From: Aphrocallistes beatrix
Lineage: Eukaryota > Porifera > Hexactinellida > Sceptrulophora > Aphrocallistidae
NCBI GenBank assembly: GCA_963281255.1
Contig: OY725492.1
Location: forward strand, 2,279,696 to 2,343,695
DNA: 64,000 bases
Reading direction: 5' to 3'
In this document: piece after piece, positions 2,801-62,026 of the stretch
Layout of the letters: each line of letters opens with the position of its first letter
Numbering within the stretch: position 1 is the stretch's first letter
The notes under the pieces: generated by a model
Told to the model about the DNA's origin: nothing
Seen by the model: the letters and a program-made list of their open reading frames with translations, nothing else
Databases searched by the model: none
Translations under genes and position numbers: made by a program

Positions 2801-3161
2801 GTCACAATAGGTAATTATAAGGGAGATCACTCGAAAAATCAAAATTTGTTAATTTGAAAAACATTTTGATGCGTAATAATGACGTCATAACAGAGTGATT
2901 ATTTATCATTTTTTGATAGTAGTTACAACATATGTGAGGTATATTAATATGCACATTCAAGGAAAATTTCAGCCTTCACTTAAAATGGTTAAGGTCGAAA
3001 AACTGAAATTTCTAATTATAAAAATGGTGACAATGACGCCATAATTCCATGATGAGTCGACATTTTCGTACGAGCTCAGAACTTAGTGGAGCAATATCCA
3101 AAAGACTCCCATATGCTAAAAATCAGCTTTCTGTGACTGGCAGTTTCTTCAATTAATTCGT

Positions 3162-3212
<51 letters not shown>

Positions 3213-3950
3213 TAGGGCGCTCCAAAAATTCCAAAGTTTAAATCTTATAATGCACACTCTTCAAATGGTTTACCTTGATTACCAAGTATTCACCATAAAA
3301 TTTTCATGCAATTTGGAGATGGTTTAGTGGTTTCGCAAGGTAGCCTCCCTAATTTATAATGGGATATGTCCGGGTTGAGGCCAGAAGTTGTAAAAAGCCT
3401 ACTTCTGACATTTGGATAGATTAGTAGCTTGATTTTTGTGTTATTTGAGGGTGGTTTTATATCAGCTAATAATACATTTTAATAACTTAAAATCAACCGG
3501 TTCCGAGATATTGGTGAAAACAGTTGGGACCAGCCTTCATACTTGAAATTATTAATGGTCTAGTCAGGTGGCTTAGTGAAATAATGGGGACACGGTGGAC
3601 AAAAGCACCAAATTTTTTTCACGACATCTTTAGATGTAGTACTTTAACTTTTTAATAGGCCCCAAGTTCAAATATCATTTTTTCGTGTCAAAATTTTATT
3701 TTTAAAATTTTCACTTTCTGCCTCCTTTCCCAAAATTAGGGTGTTTTTAAAAAATATTTAACTTCATTAAATCAAATCTAATCATTTATTATTGGTAATA
3801 TTCTTTATCTATAATGAATTTCAGTCACACGAATAGATTCCGACCACTTTTGAGAATGGAATGTGGTAACATTCCATTGTTGCTATATCGTTGCTATGGT
3901 TAAAAATTTAAAAATGTCTGAATACATTCAGGTGGCTTAGCAAAACAACT

Positions 3951-4352
3951 CTAATTCACACAGTTACAACTACAGAGTTCAGTACATGACCAGTTAGCCT
4001 TTTTACAGCCACATCTGGCACCACAACCATTGTTATTCTTGCACCCACACTTTATTAGTTCAGCGCAAGTTTTGCTAGCAAGAGGTAGAGTTGTCCAAAC
4101 AGGAGTCCAAGATAGGATTTCGTTGTCCCAACCCCAGCCCCAATCCTCTGGGCTAGGCCTGTCCTGTTTTGTCAGTTCACTAGTGGTCCAGACACCAGCT
4201 TGATATGCTGCACGTTTCGAGTGCTGTAAAAGAGCTGCTTTAGTAGGTGGGATTTTCTCCATTGTTTTGTTCCCGTGACAGAATAATTCCATCCTTGATT
4301 CATCAACGCTTTCCAGTCCGCTGGTTTTGTTGTAAAGAATTACTGTGAAGCG
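3951..4352 (-). pseudogene. C-terminal fragment of a CXC (tesmin-like) domain protein
   Basis: Open minus-strand frame of about 133 codons ending at the stop near 3951; first ATG at 4292, but similarity continues upstream to about 4352, so the ATG is not the real start. Segments in order: RMELFCHGN, MEKIPPTKAALLQHSKRAAY, SPEDWGWGWD, then a cysteine-rich tail CGCKNNNGCGARCGCKK and CTELCSCNC. The tail resembles CXC (tesmin/TSO1-type) zinc- and DNA-binding repeats; the IPPT...LLQH...YQAG plus DWGW plus CXC layout is one I know from unnamed, often high-copy animal proteins. The N-terminal majority is missing. The last third of the fragment lies inside the left arm of the foldback and is repeated in inverse at 6627-6750, where a single-base loss breaks the frame after CGARCG. 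It was therefore probably captured by the foldback, or is a leftover of its own coding sequence. Confidence 0.6.
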
Positions 4353-4518
4353 TCACTCTAAAACGCATGCTTACTCGCTCCCGTGCCTATCAACCGACCC
4401 TAAAATGCCTTGGACTGCTCCCTTTCCCGTGTTTCGTTTCCTACCTAAAAGCGTCGCTTAACCGTCCCTTATTCTAAATTTCTGGCCTAAAATGCTCATC
4501 GAATCCTCGGATTATCTA

Positions 4519-5864
4519 CAGGGTGTATCATAAGTGTTGTCGGGTAATATAATTGAATGTAAAAACCCAGAATGTATATCATGTATATATTTTCACTTAT
4601 TTATGTAATCTCCTCGACTATCTATTACTGATTTAATACGATCAGGCATACTGGCGACTAGATTTTCCAAGATATTCGGGTCAATGCTTGCCCAGGCCTT
4701 TTTTACTTGAAAAATCAGGTCTTCGATTTTAGTGACATTCTCCATTTGACTGACACTATCCTTCAAAATCGACCATAGATTCTCGATAGGATTGAGATCG
4801 GGTGAGTTGCCTGGCCACTCCCCTTTACGCCAAAACCCTGGGAAATGCTCTGCACACCAGACTTGAGTTAAATTTGCTGTGTGTGCTGGGGCACCATCCT
4901 GCATGAAAATAAAATTCGACATGTTTGAGAGCATTGACTTCTTCATTATTGAACCATAATCCGACCTACGTTCAATGGCATCTTTACAGGTCTTTTCCAG
5001 AATATAGTTTCGGTAGTAACAACCATTTATCGTCTGTTTTTGCGGAATAATATGCAACTCAGATACTGCACGATGTGACATCATGCCCCAGACGTTAATT
5101 TTTCCAGGAAATTTGACTTGAACACAAGGATCAACCTCAGCTGAATTCCGAGCCCAAACACGATCATTTTGTCTATTTGGGGTATTGAACAATTGAAAGG
5201 GTGCTTCGTCGGACCACAAAACGCGTTTCCAATCCTCAACAGTCCATTCTTTGCGAAATTCAGCAAATTTTAGACGGTTTTCCTTCATTTTGCACTCAAT
5301 CGTGGGATTTTTGGCCTTTTAAAGGATCTCACTCCTAAGCTATCCCTGAGATATCGGTAAACAGTTGAATGGGATATAGAATATCCCTTATTACTCACTA
5401 TTCTTGCCAGTTTCCTAGTAGATTTTCCTCTCTTACCGAGAGATTTCGAAATCATAATTTTGGTGGCCTTTTTAACAGTTGAATTTCGTCCGGGGCGACT
5501 TTTGGTCTTTTGAGATTCTCCAAGTTTCTCCTTGTGCCACCAACGTTCGATTGATCTCAAACTAACTCGGAGCTTTAGTGCAACATCCTTCTGAGTCATT
5601 CCTGCATTCAACATCCCAATGGCCTGCGTACGGAGCTCTAAACCATGATCTCGGACATTCATTTTCCTGGAAATAACAGGTTGACAGCGATAGTAAAATT
5701 CTGGAATTTCAGTTTAGCTAGAAATAGATTAAGTAATTTTCTACAAAGTGCAACCGGATACTAAGCAATACTGAACTAATAAATGAAGACTACTTGTGGT
5801 TATAATACAATAGTATGACTACTTTGACAATTCTACTACCCGACAACACTTATGATACACCCTG
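4519..5864 (-). mobile_element. Tc1-like DNA transposon, DD37E, 1346 bp
   Basis: Complete element nested in the core of the foldback. The ends are a perfect 28 bp inverted repeat starting CAGGGTGTATCATAAGTGTT, flanked by TA on both sides (4517-4518 and 5865-5866), the Tc1/mariner target duplication. One transposase gene fills most of the interior on the minus strand. Perfect ends and a single coding lesion indicate recent arrival. Confidence 0.95.
4593..5662 (-). pseudogene. Tc1-like transposase, DD37E, one frameshift
   Basis: Cut-and-paste transposase of about 355 residues if read through. The first frame (ATG at 5662, stop at 5285) is a paired DNA-binding region with two helix-turn-helix units (MTQKDVALKLRVSLRSIERW; a second around RKLARIVSNKGYSISHSTVY) and the linker GRNSTV. 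The second frame (5288-4593) is the DDE nuclease: first Asp in LWSDEAPFQLF, second in FMQDGAPAHTA, Glu in SPDLNPIENLW. I count 37 residues between the second Asp and the Glu, so DD37E rather than the DD34E of classical Tc1. The two frames overlap as ATGA at 5288-5285, in a run of four A where a fifth would restore frame, so a one-base loss is the simplest reading. All catalytic residues are present. A ribosomal slip on the A run is conceivable but unsupported. Confidence 0.93.
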
Positions 5865-8096
5865 TACATTCCATTCCTAAACCCTACCCGCAACCGTTTC
5901 CATTAGTTTCCATTAGTTTCCATTAGTTTCCATTAGTTTCCATTCCATTTGATCCATTTCCATTCGTTTCTTACATATTTTGCATAAAATTTCTCGTTTC
6001 GTCCACTTTTATTCCATTTCTCGCCAAAATTCCACAATTCGTCCCTTAGCAACCAATTCCCAATCAAAAATGCCTCGATTCGCCACTGATTCCCATATTC
6101 GCAACTTAAAAGCACCGTTTCTACTAGTTTCAACCATTTCCTATTAAAAATGCCTTAAATTACTCCTTGGATTCGATTAGTTTCACAAAAATGCCTTAAA
6201 TTAGCTTAGTTTCCACAGTTTCATACAAAAATGCCTTAGATTAGCTCCTTAGCAACGTAACTCACTATTAAAATACTCGTCTTATCCACAGTTCGTATCT
6301 ACATTCCTTTAAATTACTTGCATCGTCACTCTTACCATTCCCTAACAACAGCACCCATACAATTCATCGGATTTCATTCTTACTATCAACCTCTCACACC
6401 TTACAGAACTGATGAAAGCTATAAATTAGCCGAAAGTCCTAATATTGTAACTTTTCTCTACAAATCAATTTCTGTACTATGTTCACTTTCTATTAAAATA
6501 CCTAACTATCTACAAACGTTACAATTTTATCTCGCTGCAAAAACGCACAAATTACCTATTTTATGAGGCTTACTGCCTCTCCACAAAAACACTCCACTTC
6601 GCCCCCTCCACAACAACATTCAACAACAAAAAGCTTGCGCTGAACTAATAAAGTGTGGGTGCAAGAATAACAATGGTTGTGGTGCCAGATGTGGCTGAAA
6701 AAGGCTAACTGGTCATGTACTGAACTCTGTAGTTGTAACTGTATGAATTAGATTTGTTTTGCTAAGCCACCTGAATGTATTCAGACATTTTTAAATTTTT
6801 AACCATAGCAACGATATAGCAACAATGGAATGTTACCACATTCCATTCTCAAAAGTGGTCAGAATCTATTCGTGTGACCTATCAAATTGCAGGAAATTCA
6901 TTATAGATAAAGAATATCACCAATAATAAATGATTAGATTTGATAGAATGAAGTTAAATATTTTTTAAAAACACACTAATTTTGAGAAAGGAGGCAGAAA
7001 GTGAAAATTTTGACACGAAAAAATGATATTTGAACTTGGGGCCTATTAAAAAGTTAAAGTACTACATCTAAAGATGTCGTGAAAAAAATTTGGTGCTTTT
7101 GTCCAGCGTGTCCCCATTTCATAAAAAAATGGTACTAAGCCACCTGACTAGTCCCAGCTGTTTTCACCAAAATAACGGAACCAGGTAGATTTTAGCTGTT
7201 AAAATGTATTATTAGCTGATATAAAACCACCCTCAAATATTACAAAAATCAAGCTACTAGTTTATTTAAATGTCAGAAGTACGCTTTTAACAACTTCGGG
7301 CCTCAACCCAGACATATCCCATTATAAATTAGCACGAGGGGGAGGATACCTTGCGCGACCACTAAACCATCTCCAAATTGCATGAAAATTTTATGGTGAA
7401 TACTTGGTGATGAAGGTAAACCATTTTAAGAGTGTGCATCATAAGATTCAAACTTTGGAATTTCTTGGAGCATCCTAATATACATATATAAACATTAATC
7501 GAGTTTTAAAAGTAAGGATATACACTGCCTGAACAAAAGTATTCGTACACCCCATAATTCCCCATATAAATAGTTAAAATACTGATTTATTTAGCGTTTC
7601 AAGAATATTTAATTTGTGAGAGATACACTAAATTTGACTTCAAATTCGAATTCTCCACATTCAAATGACCAACTTTATAAGTTTTCAACTTAATTACTCT
7701 TCTTCAAGATTAAGTATTTTCAGCATTTGCTTTCATATGCCACATGTCGCGAGTGATCACCATTGTATATGATGGCATTGGTGGTATGAGGTGGCACAGT
7801 TTGAAAATCTTTAACCTTGTGGGAGTGTAAACAATTTGAAAGATGTGAGTAATTCGAATATGGAGAATTCGAATTTGAAGTTAAATTAAGCGTATCTCTT
7901 AACAATTAAATACATTGCCTCGGTAAATAGATCAGTATTATAATTATTTGTATGGGGAATTATGGGGTATACCAGAGGTGCAGCGGTCTGGACTGGACTG
8001 CGGTCCAGACCGGTCCGGATCGGACCGACCGGTTTCAGCTCAGTCCGGTCCGCCTTTTTAAAGTTCGGTCTGGACTGCTTCGAATTAGCGATCTAA

Positions 8097-8348
8097 CGGT
8101 CTGGACCGATTCATCGGTCTGGACCGAACAATCGGTCTGGACCGAATCATCGGTCTGAACCGAATCATCGGTCTGGACCGAACAATCGGTTTGGACCGAA
8201 TCATCGGTCTGGACCGAACAATCGGTCTGGACTGAACAATCGGTCTGGACCGATTCATCGGTTTGGACCGAATCATCGGTCTGGACCGAACAATCGGTCT
8301 AGACCGATTCATCGGGCTGAACTGATCCATCGTTTTGGACCGATTCAG
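8097..8348. repeat. 18 bp minisatellite, 14 units
   Basis: Fourteen head-to-tail units of the form CGGTCTGGACCGAATCAT with substitutions, mostly alternating between endings ATCAT and ACAAT. Each unit contains the near-palindrome CGGTCTGGACCG. Confidence 0.95.
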
Positions 8349-8613: not shown

Positions 8614-8739
8614 CGGTCTGGACTGGTCCACCGGTCTGGACCGATCCATCGGTCTGGACTGGTCCACCGGTCTGGACCGATCCATCGGTCTGGACTGGTC
8701 CACCGGTCTGGACCGATTCATCGGTCTGGACCGGTCCAA
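8614..8739. repeat. 18/36 bp minisatellite, 7 units
   Basis: Seven 18 bp units alternating CGGTCTGGACTGGTCCAC and CGGTCTGGACCGATCCAT, so the real repeat here is a 36 bp dimer. It is a distinct higher-order state of the array at 8097-8348. Confidence 0.95.
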
Positions 8740-35761: not shown

Positions 35762-35814
35762 ATTAACCCCTGTAACCAAGCGGGGTCTTTTTACACCCCC
35801 CAGGGACCAACCTT

Positions 35815-36118
35815 GCCAATGTGGGGTCCGCACAGACCCCCATTACTTTACCATAACATGCCCAGGTGGGGTCCGCACAGACCCCCATTACTTTACCATA
35901 ACATGCCCAGGTGGGGTCCGCACAGACCCCATTACTTTTCCATAACATGCCCAGGTGGGGTCCGCACAGACCCCCATTACTTTACCATAACATGCCCAGG
36001 TGGGGTCCGCACAGACCCCATTACTTTTCCATAACATGCCCAGGTGGGGTCCGCACAGACCCCCATTACTTTACCATAACATGCCCAGGTGGGGTCCGCA
36101 CAGACCTTCATTACTCTT
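35815..36118. repeat. 44/45 bp minisatellite, 7 units
   Basis: Seven units of CCAGGTGGGGTCCGCACAGA + CCCCCATTACTTTACCATAACATG type. Units 3 and 5 are 44 bp (CCCC, TTTTCC) and units 4 and 6 are 45 bp (CCCCC, TTTACC), so the array is growing as an 89 bp dimer. Each unit has GGGGTC and GACCCC six bases apart, able to fold. Open frames repeating GGVRTDPHYFTITCP on all strands come from the array. Confidence 0.95.
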
Positions 36119-41588: not shown

Positions 41589-44500
41589 ATGGCCTCACCT
41601 AAACGGTTTCTATCCGATTCGTGTATTCCTGATTTACCAAGGGAATCTCCTTATGCTTATGATTCGGGAGACGAAGACTTATCCCTCAGCGATGATGAAT
41701 CGATACCAGCACTTTCAGACATAGATTCTGATTCTGATAATGATGACACTACCAATTTTTCGATGGGTAGTGGATCTGATTTAAGATCAGATATTTCGCT
41801 AATGGAAACAAATCAAGCAGGAATAATCATTTCGAATGATCAAACTAGATGGTCAACATCTCCTATCCCCTTCGAAAACATTTATTTTCCGGCTATTTCT
41901 CATGGAATCCCTTCAGAATGCAATTCATTCACTTCAGCAATTGGTTTGTTAAATTGTTTACTGAAAGTTTATGCTGTTTGAAAAATATTTAGTGTAAATA
42001 GCTAGGAATTCTATTTGTTTCGATATTATATAACACACAAGAACTTTCATCTGAATCAACATATTGTTGATGTGTAATGCGATAACAATATTGTGTTTTC
42101 CAGGTTAAAATTTTATAATGGCGTAATATTAACACCATGAGTAGCACTTTGTGAAATTTTTGCTCAGCTGGGTAGGAATTAGTGTTCTACTTATTCTATT
42201 AAATTATCAGACATTTATAATCTATATTAGCTGAGCACTGACCAAATAAGTGTTTCTTCGGGATTCCAAAAAGGTGAAAATTACGGCATAAATCAGTCTT
42301 AAGTGTGAATTTTCGTTAAAGACTTGAACCTGTCCGAGCCAAAAAGACCCGAATACTGCCGAGGTGTTACGAGCATATTAATATCTAAAACTTTTTGACC
42401 CAGAAAATTCATCAATTTCACACGCTAATTGTTCCGATACTGCATTTCTTCGAAGTCCGAATCAGTAATTCTTCCCGGAAGTAATCGGTTTTAATCAATT
42501 TAACTGCCTCCCTGCTTTTGTCGTCAACCTGAAGAGGGTGTTGCAATTGATCAAATTTCGACAGTTTGCAACTGATCAATAAACGTTTGCAATTAATTAA
42601 CTACATCGCTTGCAGTTGATCGACAATAGAAAATGCAGTGTTGATCAGTTCTCATATTGTCGGATTTTATCAACATTGACTGACAGTAGCCAAATATTAG
42701 ATGTAGATCTGTATCTGATGTGTTAAGAAGTGCTATACGTATTATTCGATGTAGATCTGTATCTGATCTGTGATAAGAAGTGCTATACGTAATATTAGAT
42801 GTAGATCTATATCCGATCTTGATAATTGAGTAGCAAATAGGACATTAATTCACAATTTGGCCACTACCTTGGCAGCATATAATTATAATTATTAATAAAT
42901 AAATTTGTATCCAGCTCATTTTAATAATTCAATGCAAATAGATGCTGAAGCTGTGTGTATTGCCCATCCTCAAGTTTCTGCTTACACTATCTCCTGAAAT
43001 TGTGACAAATACGAGTTTTTAGTACTTATTTGCAAGGGTATATATGTATACATATACACTATACGGTTGTGGTTTGAACTTCGCATTTGAGAAACTATAT
43101 AAACCTTTGATCAATGACTAAAGTGAGAAACAATCAATAGTATATAGGAATCCTATTAGAGGTTGTCAATTGATTAACAGAGCGTCTAATGTTGATCAAT
43201 TAAAATACAGTCGACTCCGCTTAATAGGGCAACTGTTTAATCGGGTCAGCCGCTTAATCGGGCCACTTTTGGTAGGACCGGAATAGCTCTCACACATAGA
43301 AGCTACTACAAAATATTTTCGGTTAATAGGGTCCTCCGCTTAATCGGGGCAAAATGTCCTCTAACCGATGTGGCCCTATTAAGCGGAGTCGACTGTATAT
43401 CTAGTTTATCAATTGCAAAGGTTAGTTGATCAATTGCAAACCATCTAAATTTCTCCGACTTTTTTCTTGACTTAATGAAGTCAGTTAAAGTGTTTTATAT
43501 GGACTCTTTATAGAATCTTTTAAGATCTTCTTCAATGATGCCATGATTTCTAAGGTTCTATACTATTCTAACTCAAAGTTAAGACAATTCTTGATCTCGA
43601 ATAAGCATGTCTCAGGGACGTATTTGAACGAATTCACCTTTGAAGAGATACAAGCTTTTGTTGGTTTGATGATTTTGACAGGCGTATTTCGGGTTAATAG
43701 AGAACCCCTTTCTAAGTTATACTGTAAAGACCCAAATTTTTCTCGCTTAATTTTCAAAGCAACTCTTCCAAGAGAGAGATTTAAAACCATTTTGAGATTC
43801 CTCCGTTTTGATGATTTCGAAACACGATTATCTCGAATATCTGAAGACAAGTTAGCACCTATTAGGGAAATATTAGATCATATTAAATATACCCTTAACA
43901 CCTCATATTTCCCTCATACATTTCTTACGATTGACGAACATATGTGTGCTTACCGCGGTCGATGTTCATTTCGACAGTTCATTCCGAGTAAACCGGACAA
44001 GTACGGAATCAAGATTTTCATTCTTGCTGACTCTACTACCTATTATCCGTATAACATTGAAGTTTATTCGGGAAAATTATATTTAAGTAATAAACCAGCA
44101 GATATTGTTTTACGATTGGTAGCAACATGTCGTCCAGGACATGTAGTTGTAGGTGACAACTACTTTACATCATTAAGCCTATGCAATTCGTTAGTTGATC
44201 GATATCAGATACGATATTTCGGTACATTGCGGTGTAATAGGCGCGAAGTTCCTAGCGAGATGAAGAACACGAAAAATAAGCCTCTCTATTCATCAAGATT
44301 CGTATATCATAAAGACACCACAATGGTATCGTATATTGCAAAGAAAAATAAATCTGTTTTATTATTGTCCAACTACCATCACGATGGTTCTATCAGCGAT
44401 ACTTATAAGCAAAAGCCACAGCTTATATTAGACTACAATCGTCACAAATGTGGCGTTGACGTACTAGATCAGCTACTTAAAGGTCATCGCCCCTACAGAG

Positions 44501-45186
44501 CAACCCGTAGATGGCCATGTGTGCTGTTCTTTGATTTAATTGGTTTGTCTTCCCATGCATCATATGTTCTATATACCAGTAAGTTTGTAGATAGTCATAT
44601 AGCCAGAAAGAAACAAAGAAGGGAATATTTATATATGCTCGGTATTGAACTCGTACTCCCACAAATTGTTAAGAGACGGAAGTCCAGTAGTTTCAGATAT
44701 TTAACAAAAGAGGTCCGTTCTTATATTGACGATTTATTGAAATCGAAATGTGGTTCACAAGACGTTAGCGTTGTTACACCTGAAATTACACCAGTTCACT
44801 GTTCAAGCATTCCTGAGTCATCTGCTGTTCCTGTGTCATTTCCAGCTCCTGAGTCAATTCCTGCTCTTGAATCGTCTGTTGCTCCTGAGTCATATGAATG
44901 CGTTACATCTCTACCACAAATTGAGTTTTCCCGTCCTACAGTTATCTCTCGACCAGACCTTCAAGGTGTAACTCAAACTATTGTTGATACGAATAGTATT
45001 TCTGATTTGATACTACCCTATGATGTTCCACAGACAAGTAGGGGAAGATGTACGAGTTGTTTACGACAGAAAGATGTCAAGTTGAAGTCATTTTGTAATA
45101 TTTGTTCCAAACATGTTTGCGTGAACCACTCTACGCGAATAACTGTATGTAGGAATTGTGAGGACAAAAAAGTTTCAATTGATTAA
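41589..45186 (+). CDS. piggyBac transposase, two exons
   Basis: DDE transposase of the piggyBac superfamily (TTAA-specific, nuclear). Exon 1, ATG at 41589 to 41943, encodes the acidic N-terminus (YDSGDEDLSLSDDES, DIDSDSDNDD) and the RW..SPIPF motif. Exon 2 runs 43514-45186. Joining att-g at 41943 to aa-tct at 43514 keeps frame and yields ...FTSAI-E-SFKIFFNDAMISKV, the family's usual entry to the nuclease domain; borders G|GTTTGT and TATAG|AA. Predicted length about 675 residues. Counting from the ATG at 43543, catalytic residues are D131 (FLTIDEHM), D205 (VVGDNYFTS) and D306 (KCGVDVLDQ). A Pro/Glu/Ser spacer (IPALESSVAPES) precedes a C-terminal RING-like zinc finger (CTSCLRQ, CNICSKHVC, CRNC). 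No stop or frameshift. I could not find the TTAA ends, so it may be a domesticated gene, a recently trapped element, or an element whose tips I missed. Confidence 0.85.
42697..42822. repeat. ~50 bp tandem repeat, 2.5 units
   Basis: Units begin TTAGATGTAGATCTGTATCT and include GAAGTGCTATACGTA. Confidence 0.9.
43208..43395. mobile_element. pogo-like MITE, copy C
   Basis: 188 bp, ends CAGTCGACTCCGCTTAATAG and inverse, TA flanks. Nearly identical to copy B at 20948. Lies in the intron of the piggyBac gene. Confidence 0.93.
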
Positions 45187-60713: not shown

Positions 60714-62026
60714 CAGGGTGCGGCATAAGTTCTGTCCAATTTTTCAAGTATTCGTAGTTCTTGATAGCTTTACAGTATAACAATATTTAACTACCCATAA
60801 GACACTCTACTGTATACTTTTCAATGTCAATTAGTGCCTAGTTCTGTAGTTAGCTCTATACTGATATATTGCAATGACAGAGATACGCTCTACTATTATT
60901 AGCCTATTCATGGCTGGAAATTCGAATGGTGAGATTTTTAGAATTCTGAAAACCCAAAATGTTGGGAGGAGGCTTATCCATCGCACTATTCAGAGGTTCA
61001 AAGATACAGGGACTGTACAAGACAGACCCAGAACTGGACGTCCACGTATCATTCGGACCAGAAATCTGAAAGAGAAATTGCGCAAGAGAATTGCCCGAAA
61101 TCCTCGGCGTTCCATCAGGAAAATGGCTCAAGATTTCCAAATAAGTGATAGATCTCTAAGGAGAGTGATTCACGATGATCTGGGCCTTAAGGCACTTAAA
61201 AGAAAAAAGGTGCACATGCTTACCACAGCTATGCAGCAAAAACGGGTCGATAGAAGCACAGCACTGTTATCGCGTGCCACACCTGAGGTTTTGAACAATA
61301 TTTTATTCTCTGACGAAAAATTATTCACGATCGAGCAAGCTTCCAACTCCCAAAACGACAGAATCCTTTCACCCAGTGTTAAAGACATCCCCGAAAATCT
61401 TAGATTTGTTCCTCGATGCCAAAAGCCAGCTTCTGTGATGGTCCGGGCAGGAATTTCCGCTGATTCACGAACGGACCTCATTTTTGTCCCGGAAGGGATG
61501 AAAATAAATGCAAAAACTTACCGAAACTTATTCTAGATGCGGGAGTGAAAAACGCAGGTTTGAGACTTTTTAATAATAACAATTGGACCTTCCAGCAAGA
61601 TGGCGCACCGGTACACACCGCTAATATCACTCAGTAATGGTATCGGGACCAAAAAATCGATTTTTTTTGTTTCTAAGCTGGAATGGCCGCCATCAAGCCC
61701 GGACCTTAACCCCATGGACTATTGTGTGTGGTCCATTCTAGAGGAGAAGGCCTGTGCTAAATCTCATACCAATATCAGGTCTCTGAAAGCTTCACTTCAA
61801 CGTGAATGGCAAAAAATCCCCCAGGACCTCTTGCGGCGTTCCGTTCATCAGTTTCCATCACGTCTTAAGGCTGTAATTCAAAAGAAAGGAGGGTATGTTG
61901 AATAATTCTATTTGTATTCTTTAAAGTATAGTTATAGTAGTAAACGTGTGTAATATAAGGCTATTAGTTGAGTTTTTGTCAAAATATATTGAATTCCGTA
62001 TTGGACAGAACTTTTGCCGCACCCTG
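60714..62026 (+). mobile_element. Tc1/mariner-type element, 1313 bp
   Basis: Ends CAGGGTGCGGCATAAGTTCT and inverse CAGGGTGCGGCAAAAGTTCT (27 bp, one mismatch), TA on both sides (60712-60713, 62027-62028). Structurally complete with a damaged transposase. Confidence 0.93.
60874..61905 (+). pseudogene. Tc1/mariner transposase, DD~37D type, broken
   Basis: ATG at 60874 opens a 220-codon frame: helix-turn-helix in the first 60 residues (FKDTGTVQDRPRTGRPRIIR), a second one (MAQDFQISDRSLRRVIHDDL), then the first catalytic Asp in ILFSDEKLFTIE. A one-base loss after KTYRNL moves the frame; LDAGVKNAGL and FQQDGAPVHTANITQ (second Asp) continue there, followed by TAA where Gln or similar is expected. 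A further shift in a T run brings back the first frame as LEWPPSSPDLNPMDYCVWSI with the third Asp and the C-terminus to 61905. About 38 residues separate the last two acids, close to DD37D (maT-like) groups. At least two frameshifts and one stop. Confidence 0.9.

Follow-up and report, generated by a model that had tools for sequence, protein, structure and literature searches.

The segment 3215-7475 of the window, a 64,000-nucleotide stretch of the genome of the hexactinellid sponge Aphrocallistes beatrix (assembly GCA_963281255.1, contig OY725492.1, positions 2,279,696 to 2,343,695 of the forward strand), consists of three transposons nested in one another: an outer palindromic miniature inverted-repeat transposable element (MITE), an inner foldback element and, innermost, a Tc1/mariner copy. 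The inner foldback holds the cysteine-rich end of a gene in both of its inverted arms, and its descent from a gene-bearing transposon, with the fragment as the remnant of its own parent, is well supported by comparison with related loci. As the best explanation, which we regard as probable, the middle one of these three nested transposons is a non-autonomous foldback derived from a transposon with a nuclease-like gene, and it arose when the opposite end was rebuilt by repair as a copy of the 3' end, which bears the gene.

Three nested transposons

The inverted arms of the nest (3226-4073 and 6630-7463) align as six main pieces of 73-185 bp with 88-99% complementarity, plus one of 21 bp. A first-pass annotation of this DNA had described 3215-7475 as one foldback; the long inverted arms are indeed present, but the segments 3215-3560 and 7151-7475 belong to a separate MITE. 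When the genome (100.5 Mb, 28 contigs) was searched with the arm 3215-4074, query positions 1-346 and 347-860 fell into different repeat sets, and since the outer and the inner part each have their own set of copies, they are two elements, not one. This search scored 40 of 443 candidates, so that the copy counts are lower bounds.

The outer element is a palindromic MITE of about 680 bp, with its left half at 3215-3560 (+ strand, tip GGGCGCTCC, target TA at 3213-3214) and its right half at 7151-7475 (- strand). Besides the window and C1:3898348 (C denotes a contig, L a locus), at least 28 listed loci carry it, together with one diverged copy that adjoins another on C10. Fourteen of these 28 were fetched, and all 14 have both GGGTGCTCC tips within about 700 bp, TA on both sides and no insert. 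The element is thus short, multi-copy and built of an inverted repeat with a short target duplication, as expected of a MITE, and it resembles palindromic TA-target MITEs in being almost entirely inverted repeat. In two of eight printed copies (L030 and L033) the central 40 bp or so is flipped, as if a hairpin loop had turned over. The window's copy sits in a TA microsatellite (3016-3214 and 7480-7520).

The empty MITE copies define the ends of the inner element. They read ATTAATGGTCCCAGC or near variants, and the window has ATTAATGGTC, the insert (TAGTCAGG...CCTGACTA) and then GTCCCAGC, a comparison based on the eight printed copies, of which six are in the window's orientation and two have the flipped centre. 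Since these copies lack the insert, the duplicated bases of the inner element are GTC, found at 3558-3560 (left) and 7151-7153 (right). A TA duplication was also considered, because both ends carry TA; it is excluded, as the empty MITE has no TA there.

The inner foldback and the gene end in its arms

The inner foldback occupies 3561-7150, with tips TAGTCAGGTGGCTTAG...CTAAGCCACCTGACTA and a 3-bp target duplication. In its gene-side arm (3561-4073, + strand), a 365-bp outer unit (3561-3926) is followed by an internal repeat that resembles the tip (3927-3940) and then by the gene end. The opposite arm (6630-7150, - strand) has the same content inverted, except for a variant stretch (ACCATTTTTTTATGAAA) that covers positions 17 to about 33 counted from its tip. 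Six other loci were found in the arm search, all of them fetched (L022-L027). The gene-side region 3561-4519 is shared with all six at 97.7-98.5% identity (L022 covers part of it), which is far beyond chance. The flanks of the copies with both ends are TTT/TTT (L022), TTG/TTG (L023), ATA/ATA (L027) and, with one mismatch, GTC/CTC (L024); L025 and L026 have each lost one end. The copy L024, at C1:3898348, is the same insertion as the window's, because its outer left half is 98.3% identical to that of the window and the 14 other copies reach at most 96.0%; its right outer half has been lost but for about 25 bp. On this evidence the nest would have been copied once as a unit or duplicated. The flanks of the nest recur near L022, L024, L027 and L072, and a further repeat may enclose it.

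The gene fragment at 3951-4352 (- strand) is the 3' part of a transposon gene, 133 codons long, with the cysteine-rich tail at its end, and its stop lies 390 bp from the tip in the window's family. The first-pass annotation had stated that this frame crosses the arm boundary and that its cysteine-rich end exists twice in opposite orientation; both statements were borne out, with the boundary at 4073/6630 and the second, inverted copy of the tail at 6629-6751 (+ strand). That copy carries an in-frame TGA, and the two copies align with one gapped base on each side. The tail is confined to the arms of the inner element. The annotation had offered two readings, a cellular or repeat-linked gene captured by the foldback or the coding remnant of the element's autonomous parent. 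It had further proposed a search for the foldback's tips beside a longer tail gene, naming as refuting tail genes never flanked by these tips together with foldback copies that lack the fragment. The sequence GGGCGCTCCAAAAATTCC occurs once in the genome, and none of the 14 fetched GGGTGCTCC-tipped MITEs holds the fragment; on these terms the idea of a gene-bearing parent fails for the outer element, with tips GGGCGCTCC, and it is for the inner element, with tips TAGTCAGGTGGCTTAG, that it holds.

A search with the tail returned 106 matches at E <=10, most of them below 40% identity. At six of the best seven places the 133-codon frame is free of stops; other tail copies contain stops and indels. 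Relative to the majority, 3 synonymous and 16 non-synonymous distinct variants and 1 stop were counted in the window's tail and those of L022-L027, with L073 and L068 excluded; the neutral shares are 0.25, 0.70 and 0.05 (binomial p 0.44), and this small sample fits neutral drift of the copied tail. The window's tail matched no Pfam family at cut-off. With the TCR profile (Tesmin/TSO1-type CXC), the whole genome gave a single match, below cut-off and at a locus outside the tail list, and 14 control genomes gave none; the name CXC therefore rests on a cysteine spacing that resembles that of the domain. Sequence searches of the PDB gave nothing better than E 0.12.

A probable gene-bearing parent with a nuclease-like core

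Several loci join the tips of the inner foldback to more of the gene. At L022 (C8:4025412-4028128) the same tips enclose a longer gene piece with the cysteine tail, and the arms reach the equivalent of window position 4318. At L068 (C11:2688061-2689689, 1629 bp) the tips form short inverted repeats on either side of a gene that has lost internal sequence and of which there remain an N-terminal zinc-finger-like piece, VRTVDTDVVVILI, FHSFSGCDTTSGFF (with DTD and GCDTT motifs) and the tail. The zinc-finger end adjoins inner-foldback tips in two of the four further N-terminal loci fetched, L111 (C12) and L112 (C2). More distant members of the family occur on C7 and C2; they are 48% identical in the tail region, and the long inverted repeats that enclose them have other termini. 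As a side observation, the inverted repeats around this related gene family at L052 and L072 (C2, C7) are 223-335 bp long, with a tip-like TGGCGCC, and at C8:2492739-2495008 the tips are present in a locus too decayed to read. Read together, these pieces suggest a parent gene whose product likely had a zinc finger at its N-terminus, a nuclease core like that of FEN1/XPG enzymes and a cysteine tail at its C-terminus.

The core of the protein contains DG, D-x-Y, EAD, DTD and GCD motifs, which is their order in FEN1/XPG enzymes. Aligned with hhalign to four XPG_I-matching genes (one partial), a core profile that merges two broken pieces of one locus scored 23.6, whereas none of 60 column shuffles exceeded 16.5. 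The support is weak, and we regard a FEN1/XPG-like fold of the core as likely. When viral contigs were scanned with the nuclease-like protein, the three pattern matches included no relative. The protein may be the candidate transposase that moves the foldback in trans.

The tail is also found in the arms of a second foldback family. In an inverted-repeat scan of 11 further tail loci, arms of 452-900 bp (88-98%) covered the tail or most of it in four (L065, L067, L069 and L070), and in three of these four the tail was found in both orientations by tblastn. The four armed loci form one DNA family, distinct from the window's, and they therefore count as one further origin. Their tips, TAGTCAGGTCAAAATAG and TAGTCAKRTCAATATGATGC, are related to those of the window's family. 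Both tips were found at eight loci, and the 3-bp duplication is exact at four of them (C19 TAA, C14 ACA, C12 GCA, C3 TAA); at three others two of the three bases agree, and at one a single base does. At a ninth locus (C13) the second tip was not found.

A number of observations weigh against this reconstruction. Every fetched locus with inner-foldback tips has the gene deleted or truncated, and none is an intact parent. The flanks of L068 are CTT/TTA, with no matching duplication, which a true 5' end situated further out might explain; the other two of the four N-terminal loci (L113 and L114) show no tip; and although long inverted repeats enclose the gene family on C7 and C2, no target duplication can be recognised there. 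As to the nuclease, hhalign assigns a probability of 3%, its default alignment covers 28 columns, and a 195-column register, in which EAD, D(T/S)D and GCD are aligned, appears only when the alignment is forced to full length. The Pfam XPG_I profile matches four loci in the genome, none from this gene family, and neither the tail nor the nuclease-like pieces match any Pfam family at cut-off. Seven of the 11 further tail loci (L054, L060, L061, L062, L064, L066 and L071) have no arms over the tail. Finally, both ends may already have carried the 365-bp unit, in inverted orientation, when copying of the tail took place.

Proposed formation of the inverted arms

The sequence of events that we propose would begin with the repair of a gene-bearing transposon, in which the 3' end with the gene was copied onto the opposite end; since the gene ends near the 3' tip, copying this end would have copied the tail too, and the tail is accordingly seen in both arms. 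A template switch into satellite DNA during this repair may have supplied the filler between the arms. The later events are shown by the nest and its order: the non-autonomous foldback, with TAGTCAGGTGGCTTAG ends, hit a TA-targeting palindromic MITE at one GTC, and a Tc1/mariner element inserted into the foldback after that.

The copying appears with two end points, one near 4073 (the window type) and one near 4318 (L022). The 365-bp unit also adjoins the 5' inner tip in L111, and if the unit was at both ends beforehand, it is chiefly the tail part that calls for the copying model; between gene and tip, L068 and L073 have a different and shorter 3' stretch. The two arms are nearly identical except at positions 17 to about 33 from the tip, as though the original tip had been retained at each end. 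The outer tip of L111 has the variant of the gene-poor arm and that of L112 the other variant.

The filler of the window-type element totals about 920 bp, in two parts. The first (4364-4516) adjoins the gene fragment, with the junction placed by comparison with the longer gene in L022, and the second (5867-6629) shows about 69% similarity to a 905-bp tandem array with which contig C9 ends. Within this second part, a 746-bp piece (5880-6625) has 25 matches, comprising six element copies, 15 in the C9 array and four elsewhere, and outside the element its identity is 68-73%. The array (C9:5005350-5018142) runs to the contig end and is perhaps a subtelomeric satellite; no TTAGGG/CCCTAA telomere repeat was found in the 2158 bp fetched there.

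The innermost transposon (4519-5864, - strand) is flanked by TA duplications at 4517-4518 and 5865-5866, and L023 provides its empty site, with a single TA. It carries two overlapping transposase frames, one with a DDE_3 match (7.8e-11, Pfam) and the second with helix-turn-helix matches. It is like Tc1/mariner elements in its DDE_3 domain, inverted ends and TA duplication, and differs in being broken into two frames.

Alternative explanations

That 3215-7475 is a single foldback with GGGCGCTCC tips, whose parent carried the tail gene, would accord with the occurrence of the nest at two places (the window and C1:3898348), seemingly copied once as a unit. At least 28 other loci of the outer MITE lack the inner part, however (checked in the 14 fetched), inner copies exist without the outer part, and the empty MITE sites already refute a single-element reading; we give it next to no credence. 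Cargo capture, by which an unrelated foldback acquired the terminal part of a gene, cellular or repeat-linked, that is irrelevant to its movement, would account for the missing intact parent and the neutral drift of the fragment, and the filler indicates that foreign DNA can be taken up. It is nevertheless improbable, given that the zinc-finger end and the cysteine-tail end of the gene both adjoin the same tips, that a second foldback family, whose tips are related and whose target length is equal, also has the family's tail in its arms, and that long inverted repeats enclose distant family members on C7 and C2. KP is a repressor in P elements, and the retained tail might similarly be a selected short protein that represses transposition, as the frame free of stops at six of the best seven places could suggest; the ratio of 3 synonymous to 16 non-synonymous variants, which in this small sample agrees with the neutral expectation, and the stops and indels of other copies make such a role very unlikely.

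A further alternative keeps the same parent and differs in how the arms arose, namely by head-to-head joining of two 3' ends. Both arms do carry 3' ends of the gene with foreign filler between them, as such joining would produce. On the other hand, the arms keep different bases near the tip in both foldback families, and the 5' end of L111 has the variant of the gene-poor arm, though the outer tip of L112 has the other. Head-to-head joining is therefore unlikely, if less so than the other alternatives, and we prefer the copying of the gene-bearing 3' end onto the opposite end by repair.

Neighbouring features of the window

Beside the nest, a further inverted repeat (GTACACCCCATAATTCCCC, arms of 52 and 64 bp) lies at 7545-7972, and 18-bp tandem arrays of CGGTCTGGACCG-type units at 8097-8347 and 8614-8738. 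A 45-bp unit is repeated in tandem at 35814-36115 (6.8 copies, 95% matches). Two open frames, of 565 amino acids at 43489-45186 and of 223 amino acids at 60865-61536, look like a piggyBac-type transposase and a piece of a mariner/Tc1-type transposase, respectively.

Relation to known transposons

Foldback elements are often left without a coding parent. Here two foldback families, with defined tips and target length, are tied to one protein family that Pfam searches do not name, and this yields a testable claim as to which protein moves them. Among the papers listed in a literature search on Academ/AcademX, XPG-like nucleases, CXC domains and Galileo foldbacks, no title or abstract start describes this gene family. 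It may be ventured, as a tentative and rather doubtful generalization, that the sole mobility protein of a eukaryotic cut-and-paste group with TAGTCAGGT ends and 3-bp duplications is a nuclease of the FEN1/XPG fold whose ends bind zinc, no DDE-type enzyme being involved, and that foldbacks with its tail in their arms are a regular by-product.

One close comparison is with the Academ lineage. The X in AcademX stands for XPG. In PMC10045372, elements of the Academ and AcademX lineage are described as having 3- or 4-bp target duplications and a nuclease within the element; the available part of PMC11071193 contains nothing on Academ elements. By that description, the inner foldback is similar in its 3-bp duplications (exact in the window, as GTC, and in L022, L023 and L027, with one mismatch in L024) and, if the fold is as we suppose, in the FEN/XPG-like core of its parent. 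It differs in that the gene seems short, about 700 codons as estimated by reading, and in that no separate transposase core was recognised in it. The parent may be akin to this nuclease-coding lineage, and we refer to it as Academ-like.

For the arms, the model is Galileo, a Drosophila element placed in the P superfamily by its transposase, whose foldback-like arms lengthen, according to Marzo et al. (PMC3573991), by recruiting internal sequence copied from the other end (TIR1-F1-F1-TIR2; TIR, terminal inverted repeat). No kinship with the P superfamily was seen here, though no P transposase was compared directly; the gene pieces match no Pfam family at cut-off. The inner foldback has a 3-bp target duplication, and the recruited piece is coding. 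As in Galileo, the terminal inverted repeats are expanded, and the arms hold the gene end in both orientations. Repair by copying between ends, as proposed for Galileo, may have acted here as well; inverted arms can in this manner swallow the end of the element's own gene.

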